Shown here: piece after piece, positions 30,478 to 34,543 of the stretch
Layout: every line of letters starts with the position of its first letter
Position numbering within the stretch: the stretch's first letter is position 1
IMG/VR virus record: IMGVR_UViG_3300029939_000011
Location: 1 to 58,781 of that record
From: a virus
Direction: 5' to 3' (one strand)
Length of the DNA stretch: 58,781 nt
The notes under the pieces: generated by a model
Database searches by the model: none
Seen by the model: only the letters and a program-made list of their open reading frames with translations
Told to the model about the DNA's origin: nothing
Program-made: the position numbers and the translations under genes

Positions 30478-30564
30478 AACAGGATTGCCAGGATTGCGGA
30501 AGTATGTACTTTACAAACCCATGATTTTTGCCTATCCTGATCCCATATCAGGAGCGAAAACATC

Positions 30565-31497
30565 ATGGCCGAAGCAATCCTCAATCAACCGCAATTCCAA
30601 GATGCCGAAAAGGCCCGCGAATATCTGGAAGCAATCCGCTGGCCGGATGGCCGCGTTTGCCCGCATTGCGGCGTTGTGGGCGAGCATTACAAGCTTGAAG
30701 GTAAAGCTACTCGCCCTGGCGTGTACAAGTGCTCGGATTGCCGCGAGCAGTTCACGGTCACGGTTGGCACCCTGTTTGAAGACAGCAAGGTAGGCTTGGA
30801 CAAGTGGTTGACTGCCTGCTACCTGATGTCGTGCAGCAAGAAGGGAATCAGCAGCAAGCAGCTCGAACGCATGCTTGGTGTCAGCTACAAAACCGCTTGG
30901 TTTATGTCGCACCGTATCCGCGAAGCCATGGACAACGGCGGCGGCATTTTGGGCGGCAGTGGAACCCCTGTGGAGGTTGACGAAACCTATTGGGGCAACA
31001 ACGGCAAGCAAGCCAAAGGCGCTCGCGGCGGCGATCACAAGATGAAAGTCGTTTCGCTGGTTGAGCGCGACGGCCAAAAGCGCTCGTTCCACGTTACGAA
31101 CGTGAATGCCAACACCCTGCGCCCGATCATGAAGAAGCACATCCATGAGGATTCGCGCCTTATGACTGACGAAGCCAAGGTCTACAACAAGATCGGCGTC
31201 GAGTTCGGCCAGCACCAATCGGTGAACCACAGCGCCAAGGAATATGCCCGTGGCGATGTGACCACCAACACGGTTGAATCGAGCTTTGCTATCCTGAAGC
31301 GTGGCTTGTACGGTACGTTCCACAGCGTCAGCGAAAAGCACTTGCAGCGCTATGCCAACGAGTTTGACTTCCGTTGGAACAACCGTGCTAAGCTTGGCGT
31401 GACTGATTTGCAACGCACAATTAACGTGCTGAGTGGGATTGGCGGTAAGCGCCTGATGTATCGGCACTCATTACCGGCAATGGAAAAGGTCAATTGA
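30565..31497 (+). CDS. IS1595-family (ISXO2-like) transposase
   Basis: The 310-residue protein cuts and joins the element ends. An N-terminal zinc ribbon (C-P-H-C and C-S-D-C, residues 33-58) precedes a DDE-type core: V-E-V-D-E-T-Y-W-G (first Asp), M-T-D-E-A-K-V-Y (second Asp), and V-E-S-S-F-A-I-L-K-R (Glu/Asn position). All elements look intact, so the transposon may be active. GGAGCGAAAAC precedes the ATG. Confidence 0.96.
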   Translation: MAEAILNQPQFQDAEKAREYLEAIRWPDGRVCPHCGVVGEHYKLEGKATRPGVYKCSDCREQFTVTVGTLFEDSKVGLDKWLTACYLMSCSKKGISSKQLERMLGVSYKTAWFMSHRIREAMDNGGGILGGSGTPVEVDETYWGNNGKQAKGARGGDHKMKVVSLVERDGQKRSFHVTNVNANTLRPIMKKHIHEDSRLMTDEAKVYNKIGVEFGQHQSVNHSAKEYARGDVTTNTVESSFAILKRGLYGTFHSVSEKHLQRYANEFDFRWNNRAKLGVTDLQRTINVLSGIGGKRLMYRHSLPAMEKVN

Positions 31498-31503
31498 ATA
31501 AAA

Positions 31504-32322
31504 GTGGAAAAAGATCGAAATAAGATAACTGTACAAGTTGAGGGGACCGCCGAGGATGGTGGGGATCTCTCTTTGTCCAATTTCATCGATCAATTGCAAA
31601 ATATCCGCGCCCTTCTTGCCGAGGCGGACAGAATAGTAACTGGAGAACAGCAATCTACTGTGTTCAGGGTTACGAATCTATCCCATAGCAGCCCATCTGC
31701 CATTGAGCTTACGGGTTATCCGAAGGTATCCGACAAGGACTTTACGAATCAGGTAGTTGAATATGTAACTGGTTCGCTTGATAGCCTGGTTACGCTAAAA
31801 CAGTTTCCAAAAGACGCATCTCAGAAATTCATAAGGAGCGTAAAAAAACTGTTTGATGGGGTCGGAAAGCGCATTGACTCTATAAAGGTTTTCGGGCCGA
31901 GCGCAGATTTACCGATCATAATAACCAGCGATGTTGTTGAGCAGTTGGAAGTTTCTGTTCTTCGACAAGTTCGTTCGTTCGGTTCGGTAAAGGGCGTAAT
32001 GCAGGCATATAACAGCCACACCAAGACTAGATACTTTAATCTTTACCCTCCAATACCTGGGGTTGAGATAAAGTGCATTTTCTCTAAGGAGCTTGTACGA
32101 AAGGCTTCTGATGCGGTCGAAAGAAACGTCACTGTGAGCGGGACACTGATATACACGGTCGGAAATGTTTTTCCTGATGAAGTCATAGTCAACGATATAG
32201 AAGTTCATAAAAACGATAACGAATTGCCGACGCTGGAAAGTTTCTCCGGGTCGGCAACGGATGCCACTGGAAGCCTATCTACCGAAGACTTCATAAGGCA
32301 AACGCGAAATGAGTGGCACTAG
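31504..32322 (+). CDS. Unknown transposon passenger protein (272 aa), paired with a PIN protein
   Basis: Starts at GTG 6 bases after the transposase stop; the ribosome site is weak. The protein is mixed alpha/beta with no motif I recognise. Residues 1-150 look like one domain (LSLSNFIDQLQNIRALLAEA near the start), and about 155-240 another (RYFNLYPPIPGVEIKCIFSK). It overlaps the PIN gene by 14 bases, a spacing common in toxin-antitoxin and defence pairs. Base use is AT-richer than the phage genes. Confidence 0.85.
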   Translation: MEKDRNKITVQVEGTAEDGGDLSLSNFIDQLQNIRALLAEADRIVTGEQQSTVFRVTNLSHSSPSAIELTGYPKVSDKDFTNQVVEYVTGSLDSLVTLKQFPKDASQKFIRSVKKLFDGVGKRIDSIKVFGPSADLPIIITSDVVEQLEVSVLRQVRSFGSVKGVMQAYNSHTKTRYFNLYPPIPGVEIKCIFSKELVRKASDAVERNVTVSGTLIYTVGNVFPDEVIVNDIEVHKNDNELPTLESFSGSATDATGSLSTEDFIRQTRNEWH

Positions 32323-32881
32323 AGACGCCATCTATTGGGATACCTGTATATTCTTTGCCTTGCTCAAGAAAGAGGAGCATAGGCAAGGAGAATTCGACTC
32401 GATCCTAAAAAGTGCATTAGCCTTCGATGCCGGAAGCTTAATCATAGTAACTTCGGCGATAACAATCACAGAATTGATGGCGGGGAAAATAGATCAGGCC
32501 CAAAAGGATAGGTTTCGCCAAATGGCGAATAGATCAAACTTCATGTTTGTTGATGCCAACGACGCGGTATGTAGTATGGCCTCCGAAATTCGCGAATATT
32601 ACTTCGCAAATCGAATTGATGACCTGTATCCAACAACGCCAGATTCTATCCACGTCGCGTCTGCAATCCTGTCGCAGGCATCCGCGCTAATCACTTTTGA
32701 TGATAATAACAAGCCAAAATCAAAAGAACTGGCGATGAGCAAGATGGTCATTGCCGGGAAAATAGCCGAAAAATATCCATTGAAAATATGCCGCCCAGAG
32801 GTTGGCGAAACTCAGCCAAGCCTACCGCTTGATGCCCCAAATCAAATTGAACAGGAGGGGGACAATGGATACGACGAATAA
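32309..32881 (+). CDS. PIN-domain ribonuclease-like protein
   Basis: The 190-residue protein has the four acidic positions of a PIN nuclease: D in I-Y-W-D-T-C (near residue 10), E in T-I-T-E-L-M (near 51), D in T-P-D-S-I-H-V-A-S-A, and D in L-I-T-F-D-D-N-N-K. PIN proteins cut RNA; many are toxins such as VapC. The last 30 residues are Pro/Glu-rich. It overlaps its neighbours on both sides, and with the 272-aa protein it may form a toxin-antitoxin or defence unit. Confidence 0.9.
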   Translation: MSGTRDAIYWDTCIFFALLKKEEHRQGEFDSILKSALAFDAGSLIIVTSAITITELMAGKIDQAQKDRFRQMANRSNFMFVDANDAVCSMASEIREYYFANRIDDLYPTTPDSIHVASAILSQASALITFDDNNKPKSKELAMSKMVIAGKIAEKYPLKICRPEVGETQPSLPLDAPNQIEQEGDNGYDE

Positions 32882-32993
32882 AGAAAAGGAAGACAGTAAG
32901 AAATTGGACGACTTGCTTCGCAAGATGCTATCCACGCCACCCAAGCCGCACAAGAAACCCGCCACCGAACAGAAAAAGAAAACCGCCAAATAG
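32865..32993 (+). CDS. Small lysine-rich peptide (42 aa)
   Basis: MDTTNKEKEDSKKLDDLLRK and a Pro/Lys tail. AGGAGGGGG directly precedes its ATG, the best ribosome site in the transposon. It overlaps the end of the PIN gene by 17 bases. Its TAG lies in the terminator loop. It could be an antitoxin or an accessory peptide. Confidence 0.7.
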   Translation: MDTTNKEKEDSKKLDDLLRKMLSTPPKPHKKPATEQKKKTAK

Positions 32994-33003
32994 GCGGTTT
33001 TTT
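32981..33003. terminator. Two-way intrinsic terminator
   Basis: AACCGCC-AAATA-GGCGGTT followed by TTTT on the plus strand; on the minus strand TTCTTTTTCTG follows. It separates the rightward passenger genes from the leftward GIY-YIG gene and ends both. Confidence 0.9.
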
Positions 33004-33011
33004 ATGAGGAT

Positions 33012-33386
33012 TTACAATGCATTCCGAACCGAATTTATTATCCCCTGCTTGTGATGAACATTCAGCTCTGGCTGGAAATGGGCGATCAGCTTCACCTCCC
33101 AGTCATCCCTTTGCTGCTGCAATGCAACCGGCGCCAGGAGCAAGAATTGAGCCCCTTTACCAATCGCCGGACCACGTTGTTCGTGCTGTCCTGGGCGATC
33201 TTTCAGATTATCAGATTGCCCAATATAGACTGGTATGTAGGAATTCTGCGATGTCTGCCCGTTCCAAGTGTGGGTACAAAACATATACAAACCAGCCTCT
33301 TCAGGAAGATTCGGCTCTTGAACTGAATAGATAAAGAAATCCAGCCGTTCGCCACTTGGAAGGCTGATTGCAATTGCATTTGACAT
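33012..33386 (-). CDS. GIY-YIG nuclease-like protein
   Basis: The 124-residue protein holds A-G-L-Y-M-F (GIY part) and I-P-V-Y-I-G-Q-S-D-N-L-K-D-R (YIG part with the arginine 8 positions later), then an acidic E-V-K-L-I-A-H-F near the end that fits the catalytic glutamate. It is a small single-domain nuclease of the type found on mobile DNA. AAGGGGATC precedes its ATG. It points away from the right transposon end. Confidence 0.85.
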   Translation of the reverse strand: MSNAIAISLPSGERLDFFIYSVQEPNLPEEAGLYMFCTHTWNGQTSQNSYIPVYIGQSDNLKDRPGQHEQRGPAIGKGAQFLLLAPVALQQQRDDWEVKLIAHFQPELNVHHKQGIINSVRNAL

Positions 33387-33427
33387 TTGATCCCCTTAAA
33401 ACAAACCGGTACTCCCCCGCGCCGATT

Positions 33428-33616
33428 TTACCATGGGTTTGTAAAGTACATACTTCCGCAGGATTGGAATGCGTAGCCAGGAGAATGGCCTATTCCAGTC
33501 TCGCCACTGCCGACGCAAAACCAAATCCTACGGTGATACGGCGCAGAGGATCGTTCGCCATTTAGATAATCTTGTACGAGGCGAATTTGTGAAGTCAGGC
33601 ATGGCTTGATTTGCAT
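33428..33616 (-). pseudogene. Gene truncated by the transposon
   Basis: The frame starts MQIKPCLTSQIRLVQDYLNG after a GAGG ribosome site, but its last 10 codons (CGSMYFTNPW) are read from the right inverted repeat. If the transposon and one AGGATT are removed, the frame runs on to a TAG at 30443-30445, giving a 67-residue protein ending L-I-R-E-S-L-L and overlapping the head morphogenesis gene tail to tail. So the original 3' end is now on the other side of the element. Function unknown. Confidence 0.7.
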
Positions 33617-33858: not shown

Positions 33859-34194
33859 CTACCTCACGAGGAAGTTGATGATGCGGCGGATGATGGATGG
33901 CGGCTTGATGACGGGAGCGTTCCAGGCTGGGGCAGAAATCAAGCGCATCAAATTAGGTGCGCCGACGACTATCTTTCCAATCGGGTCATCTTCGGTAAAT
34001 TCTAGGCTAACCGGGAATCTTGAAATCTGACCCAAATGGGCATGGGCAATTTTCCCATCCTCACCAAGTATGAAAAACATTTCCGGAAATCTTTCTTCGG
34101 AGATTTTCAGATAGTTGAAAACGACGCCTACGCCTCGATGCATTTCTGCTTGTTCGATGGTGAGGCCAACGAATTTCAATTCGAATTCTGTCAT
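33859..34194 (-). CDS. Hypothetical protein (111 aa)
   Basis: MTEFELKFVGLTIEQAEMHR begins a 111-residue protein with a beta-rich centre and a basic, hydrophobic C-terminus (PPSIIRRIINFLVR). It overlaps the upstream regulator by ATGA and lies 2 bases before the next gene. No family recognised. Confidence 0.7.
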   Translation of the reverse strand: MTEFELKFVGLTIEQAEMHRGVGVVFNYLKISEERFPEMFFILGEDGKIAHAHLGQISRFPVSLEFTEDDPIGKIVVGAPNLMRLISAPAWNAPVIKPPSIIRRIINFLVR

Positions 34195-34331
34195 TGCTGT
34201 TTCTCCACCTTCTTAAGATAAGCCTCAACCGCCCGCCGGATATGCTCGGCGACGGAATAGCCTGTGCTGTCGGAAAGTGACCGCAGGCGGTCAAGTAGTT
34301 GCTGAGGCAGGAAGATTTGGAAACGGATCAT
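34191..34331 (-). CDS. Ribbon-helix-helix (CopG-like) regulator, 46 aa
   Basis: M-I-R-F-Q-I-F-L-P is the DNA-binding strand, followed by two helices (QQLLDRLRSLSDSTGYSVAE, then H-I-R-R-A-V-E-A-Y-L), the exact ribbon-helix-helix plan. Such proteins are repressors or antitoxins. It overlaps both neighbours by ATGA and probably controls the promoter at 34574-34601. Confidence 0.85.
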   Translation of the reverse strand: MIRFQIFLPQQLLDRLRSLSDSTGYSVAEHIRRAVEAYLKKVEKQQ

Positions 34332-34543
34332 AGTAATTTCGAAAGAACCCATGCATACGGGAAGAACCAGAAGATGAAGCATGGAAGTGTAACGAAGAGG
34401 GTGTGCCTTACCAGTCCCGGAAATGGAATATTCCTGGAAATACAAAAAAGATGAATGCTGCTCATAGATACGCATGAACCGATTATCCAGGCACACGTTA
34501 ATTGAACGATGGCGCAATAAAGCTGAAATTTTTCATGAGACAT
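34328..34543 (-). CDS. Small membrane protein (71 aa)
   Basis: MSHEKFQLYCAIVQLTCAWI begins a protein with two hydrophobic helices, the second being TLFVTLPCFIFWFFPYAWVL. AGAGGAG precedes the ATG at 34543. First gene of the accessory operon. Could be a superinfection-exclusion type protein by size and topology; not proven. Confidence 0.75.
   Translation of the reverse strand: MSHEKFQLYCAIVQLTCAWIIGSCVSMSSIHLFCISRNIPFPGLVRHTLFVTLPCFIFWFFPYAWVLSKLL

Follow-up and report, generated by a model that had tools for sequence, protein, structure and literature searches.

A recurrent PIN RNase gene pair carried by an IS1595-family transposon in a tailed phage, and its possible role in competition between phages

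The window analysed here, a stretch of 58,781 nucleotides that spans positions 1 to 58,781 of the IMG/VR record IMGVR_UViG_3300029939_000011, is a tailed phage contig hosting a 2962-bp transposon of the IS1595 family (30497-33458), in which a transposase gene is followed by the genes for a 272-aa protein, a PIN RNase and a 42-aa peptide, a terminator and a GIY-YIG-like gene (Table 1). The pair made of the 272-aa protein (the partner) and the PIN RNase is real, intact, recurrent and mobile. Judging from the genes found in its company and from structure models, there is about an even chance that this pair works as a mobile RNase effector module in competition between phages.

The transposon and its insertion site

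The element shows the features of an IS1595 member, namely a DDE transposase with a zinc ribbon, terminal inverted repeats and an 8-bp target duplication, and its transposase matches Pfam DDE_Tnp_IS1595 (5e-39), Zn_ribbon_IS1595 (3e-15) and NCBIfam transpos_IS1595 (6e-63), all above cut-offs. The initial annotation of this DNA had described an IS1595-type transposon at 30496-33459 with perfect 28-bp ends and an intact transposase. Its type, the perfection of its ends and the intact transposase all stand, the ends being corrected to 27 bp and the boundaries to those given above; an end-to-end match of 29 bp is also seen, whose extra length beyond 27 bp corresponds to flanking bases. The description of the cargo was likewise largely borne out. 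The partner, an unknown protein as had been said and one matching no family library, starts with GTG just after the transposase stop, and its ORF overlaps the PIN ORF by 14 nt. The ORF of the 42-aa peptide overlaps the PIN stop and is preceded, a few bases upstream of its start, by the strong ribosome site AGGAGGGGG, and the two-way terminator is a hairpin with folding energies of −15.5 kcal/mol on one strand (z −4.9) and −13.9 kcal/mol on the other (z −4.7), which no shuffle equalled. The exception is the orientation of the GIY-YIG-like gene, previously called divergent, which lies tail to tail with the operon across the terminator and is convergent. Its product scores 15.8 bits in Pfam, below the curated cut-off of 22.6 bits, and contains GLY...YIG, R64, H68 and E97, mostly common to a relative with 30% identity (L036:7166-7528) that another IS1595 element carries, so that this gene recurs as a passenger.

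Table 1. Features of the transposon and its borders in the window
Feature	Position	Strand	Basis
8-bp target duplication, left copy CAGGATTG	30489..30496	.	Exact match to right copy
Left terminal inverted repeat, 27 bp	30497..30523	+	Perfect match to right end
Promoter-like site TTTACA-17-TATCCT, −35 inside left inverted repeat	30510..30538	+	Not above chance alone
IS1595-family transposase, 310 aa	30565..31497	+	Pfam and NCBIfam
272-aa partner, GTG start, no known family	31504..32322	+	ORF; relatives found
Predicted OB-fold domain of partner, residues 155-234	31966..32205	+	Structure model and Foldseek
Low-confidence tail of partner with conserved C-terminal helix (EDF-R-R-W)	32227..32319	+	Model and alignment
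PIN-domain RNase, 190 aa	32309..32881	+	Pfam PF01850 4e-11; D11, E55, D112, D131 present
42-aa basic peptide with TPPKPH motif	32865..32993	+	ORF reading and alignment
Hairpin terminator, usable from both sides	32979..33001	.	Folding
GIY-YIG-like protein, 124 aa	33012..33386	-	Motif; sub-threshold Pfam
Right terminal inverted repeat, 27 bp	33432..33458	-	Perfect match to left end
8-bp target duplication, right copy CAGGATTG	33459..33466	.	Exact match to left copy

Fifty related elements with definable ends, the one in the window included, have a median length of 2.6 kb (range 1.9-4.6 kb). A −35-like hexamer lies in the left inverted end of all 50, and a properly spaced −10-like hexamer follows in 35, where shuffling predicts 5.4; the elements are related and the cases not independent. 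Because of this layout at the left inverted end, the cargo is probably expressed jointly with the transposase from the end of the transposon.

All ORFs of the transposon are intact, it is present as a single copy in the contig, and its exact inverted-repeat sequence was absent from every other viral contig searched. Head genes are found on both sides, a head morphogenesis gene upstream and the genes for the head maturation protease and the major head protein downstream; the insertion point is located 19 nt past the head morphogenesis stop codon, and no gene is interrupted. Pseudomonas phage Amjad_SA, a relative, has its next gene directly after the head morphogenesis gene. In Aeromonas phage 2_D05 two reverse-strand genes occupy this slot, which therefore tolerates additions. 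Just downstream of the transposon, the window has a ribbon-helix-helix (CopG-like) gene (34191-34517, minus strand; PF01402, 1e-6), which belongs to a group of small reverse-strand phage genes.

The partner protein, the PIN RNase and their linkage

The PIN protein keeps its acidic active-site residues (Table 1), and for this reason, as well as from what is known of the family, it likely cuts RNA; a non-functional active site had been named at the outset as evidence that would count against the proposal, and the residues proved intact. PIN proteins of the VapC type cut tRNA. The PIN of the window reaches 13.1 bits with the NCBIfam VapC model, whose cut-off is 80 bits.

The partner gave no match in Pfam, NCBIfam, PADLOC or PHROGs, no PADLOC model matched the partner or the PIN at E 1 or below, and no solved chain matched the profile of either protein by sequence. 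A reading of the partner as a VapB antitoxin was rejected on domain content, no RHH, AbrB, HTH or Phd domain being present. A structure model built from five sequences (mean pLDDT 76) predicts an alpha/beta domain, an OB fold and a low-confidence tail that ends in a helix. With the OB part, Foldseek returned SSB, ExoVII, PriB and LysRS, all of them nucleic-acid binders, at probabilities near 1 and E-values above 0.004, which suggests an OB fold of the nucleic-acid type in the model; no PDB entry matched the partner model below E 0.004. A DUF6575 protein (E 2.5e-7, TM about 0.4) is among the best full-length fold matches found in viral proteins, and the Pfam model of DUF6575 has no match in the partner. 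The C-terminal helix motif is missing from the partners of two loci, L103 and L025.

As for the linkage of the two genes, a single relative of the partner was found among 50,697 phage records, in Pseudomonas phage vB_PaeS_AV001 (35% identical), where it is directly followed by a PIN that is 38% identical to that of the window. Moreover, when 2.9 million viral contigs were scanned separately with partner and PIN seeds, the same six contigs were returned. The initial annotation had allowed that the pair might never be linked in other genomes; it is linked in every relative found and conserved at 35-39% identity among relatives, whose PIN proteins keep the catalytic acids. Plasmids gave no match to the partner of the window by tblastn, and plasmid copies were later found by their position behind the transposase. 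Two pattern scans of bacterial genome contigs for the partner, of a kind that needs near-exact short peptides, were also empty, and since the plasmid copies emerged by position, this result reflects a limit of the method rather than absence.

In the contigs that were read, which are Pseudomonas-type prophages, the pair adjoins a repressor gene, with four different repressors, of which that of AV001 was tested against a library and the others were judged from sequence. These prophage pairs lie near the repressors without any transposase. In this regard, 1757 bp around the pair are 97.5% identical in DNA between AV001 and a second contig (L009), with unrelated flanks outside, so that the pair moves as a block. 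One prophage copy (L013, G004:C1:4116-4950) has a partner frameshifted near its 3′ end, with the following PIN ORF still open, an observation that bears on whether the PIN alone is toxic.

The module and other cargo in related elements

In four further IS1595 elements, all divergent, the pair comes immediately after the transposase gene; two of them are on plasmids and two on viral contigs. The plasmid elements, from Roseomonas marmotae and Methylobacterium oryzae, present in the same order the transposase, a 266- or 288-aa protein, the PIN and a 61- or 62-aa ORF, and their partners relate to the family of the window with hhalign E-values of 2e-8 and 6e-5, each for a single comparison. Out of 80 loci with related transposases, on contigs classed as viral, L035 and L103 carry the same pair and most lack it. 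In two further loci (L089 and L098) the gene before the PIN encodes a partner from a different family, which has at most an OB-like C-terminal part in common (E 0.002). In three loci, a small protein of about 60 aa with the motif RF.E.AR comes after the PIN and replaces the TPPKPH peptide (L025:5792-5977, L026:3122-3310 and L089:8265-8447).

When 82 transposases were placed on a tree, six changes were needed to account for the seven carriers, the two elements with a variant partner included, at least five of these changes being forced by well-supported branches. The module would thus have been gained at least five times on this tree, the variant-partner elements included, which indicates that it is exchanged among elements and not inherited with one transposase. 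A shuffle control, where 81 of 500 shuffles were as low, showed that carriers are not clustered beyond chance, as fits such an exchange.

The remaining cargo is diverse. One element (L069:5937-10225), whose 24-bp ends are perfect and whose 8-bp duplication is exact, contains PD-Lambda-5 A and B, both genes of a known defence system (E 8e-117 and 2e-117). Others carry DNA methylases, DUF1828 proteins that match the PADLOC candidate PDC-M24B, a PDC-M53B match, and SocA-like, Mrr-like and DUF3800 genes, recognised defence genes being found in a minority of the elements only. The commonest cargo cluster comprises 19 linked members of 170-260 aa with a 'W..lE' motif and no Pfam family (L036:7655-8179, L046:3958-4626, L070:7555-8061, L096:4627-5214 and 15 more), one of which has a weak HEPN-like match.

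Peptides related to the 42-aa product ("ML.TPPKPH") occur in 15 of the 50 elements, inside the element in all 15 cases, and none was found in 461 kb of element flanks; six aligned examples have L..L.TPP.PH in common. When viral contigs were scanned strictly for the motif, 26 stretches emerged, of which about 20 are real peptides; 14 of these are on loci with a recognisable IS1595 transposase. The peptide accompanies IS1595 elements with many different cargos.

Known systems, proposed function and alternatives

IS1595 elements with passenger genes (tIS) are already known, such as MTnSag1/tISSag10 and tISCpe8 (PMC5704250), and the element of the window resembles them in its transposase family, inverted ends of about 25 bp, target duplication and passengers; the examples in that review comprise a resistance element and mobilizable elements, whereas here the passengers are a PIN pair and a GIY-YIG-like gene. 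No link of IS1595 to PIN cargo or GIY-YIG passengers was found in the literature searched, which consisted mainly of non-subscription papers. Tn7-like transposons carry diverse defence systems (PMC8649781) by means of a different transposition machinery, while the IS1595 elements described here, of 1.9-4.6 kb, carry a small module each. With regard to the module itself, the two-gene system DS-5 also joins a PIN gene to an adjoining partner gene, both of which are needed to protect E. coli from phage, and it was reported as likely not a toxin-antitoxin; removal of the partner released no toxicity (PMC13092281). The partner of DS-5 contains DUF5830 and an AcrIF4-like domain, in contrast with the predicted OB fold of the window partner, and none of seven partners gave a Pfam DUF5830 hit. 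One defence system obtained by experimental selection includes DUF6575 (PMC9519451), and proteins with this domain match the partner along its full length in viral models, yet with a TM of only about 0.4 and no Pfam hit. Exclusion of the RexAB type, as in lambda and in a Pseudomonas putida prophage that has such defence genes downstream of its CI-like repressor (PMC12894663), is alike in having two genes beside a prophage repressor and a first protein of similar size; however, the second gene is RexB and not a PIN RNase, and the repressor-adjacent position holds for the prophage relatives only, not for the copy in the window. In VapBC, a PIN RNase with an acidic active site is also preceded by an overlapping partner gene, but VapB is small and has a DNA-binding domain, while the 272-aa partner has an OB fold in the model and no such domain. 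Since the partner is without a VapB domain and the PIN is far below the VapC cut-off, the module is not VapBC by membership, although it may still work like VapBC. The module resembles passenger IS1595 elements, defence-carrying transposons and DS-5 in kind, and differs from them in its partner and its vehicle.

The initial annotation had proposed a toxin-antitoxin, anti-phage or inter-phage competition system. The idea that the module is mobile and takes part in phage competition finds indirect support, because the pair adjoins prophage repressors and sister elements carry known defence genes, whereas a classic VapBC does not, as the partner is not a DNA-binding antitoxin of the VapB type. 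Under the competition reading, a cargo-carrying IS1595 transposon would deliver a two-gene RNase effector module, with transcription from the left inverted repeat spanning, as the layout suggests, the transposase, the partner, the PIN and the peptide. The OB fold and the DUF6575 fold matches point to a partner that may sense nucleic acid and restrain or position the RNase until infection, binding through the OB fold while a flexible tail with its conserved C-terminal helix would hold or position the PIN. A signal of infection, perhaps ssDNA or RNA of a competing phage, might change the partner and free the PIN, which may then cleave RNA of the cell, with tRNA, the substrate of VapC, as the most likely target, and stop the growth of the rival. 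For as long as it is resident, the host phage would be able to exclude superinfecting phages, and this benefit would favour retention of the transposon. The RNase activity, the control by the partner, the trigger and the protection are each proposed on these grounds.

The main rival to competition between phages is a toxin-antitoxin pair that would serve only the upkeep of the transposon, with the PIN as toxin and the partner as a non-classical antitoxin that blocks it through the C-terminal helix, loss of the element killing or stalling the cell. Such a function would agree with a partner gene upstream of and overlapping the PIN gene, a conserved tail helix next to this overlap, a PIN belonging to the VapC toxin family and a pair that is always linked. 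We nevertheless find it rather unlikely: the partner is 3-4 times the usual VapB size and devoid of the RHH, AbrB, HTH or Phd domains, L103 and L025 lack the helix motif, DS-5 is a similar PIN pair that is not toxic after partner removal (PMC13092281), and the prophage of G004 has a frameshifted partner yet an open PIN ORF.

The intact ORFs, together with the retention of the pair elsewhere at prophage repressors, where lysogen-expressed genes gather, also make it improbable that the element is a passive hitchhiker, which recently landed by neutral insertion at a permissive site and currently does nothing for the phage, even if its position 19 nt beyond a stop codon, where Aeromonas phage 2_D05 has extra reverse-strand genes, would suit it and the perfect ends suggest little time for selection. 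Less probable still is that the partner, the PIN and the peptide serve the transposon by regulating transposition or the transposase mRNA. The cargo does start within a few bases of the transposase and the TPPKPH peptide tracks IS1595 elements of varied cargo, but the pair exists without a transposase in prophages and most related elements lack it, and a service to the transposon suits the peptide better than the pair.

Beyond the competition role of this one module, it is tentatively possible that this lineage of tiny IS1595 elements acts as a shuttle swapping single defence cassettes among phages, prophages and plasmids, with promoters built into its ends, the TPPKPH peptide as a marker and, in the window, a PIN defence system not previously described, with a putative OB-fold nucleic-acid sensor. 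If true, this would be a small and easily missed vehicle bringing defence genes into phages, and the PIN system, whose partner would be of a new kind, would be ready for cloning and testing. The recurring cargo would then supply a list of genes outside defence islands that are candidates for a role in defence. Also among the cargo, two loci (L062:7413-8689 and L093:8821-10094) join a DUF1828 protein to a partner of 162-168 aa without known family, with the TPPKPH peptide adjoining.
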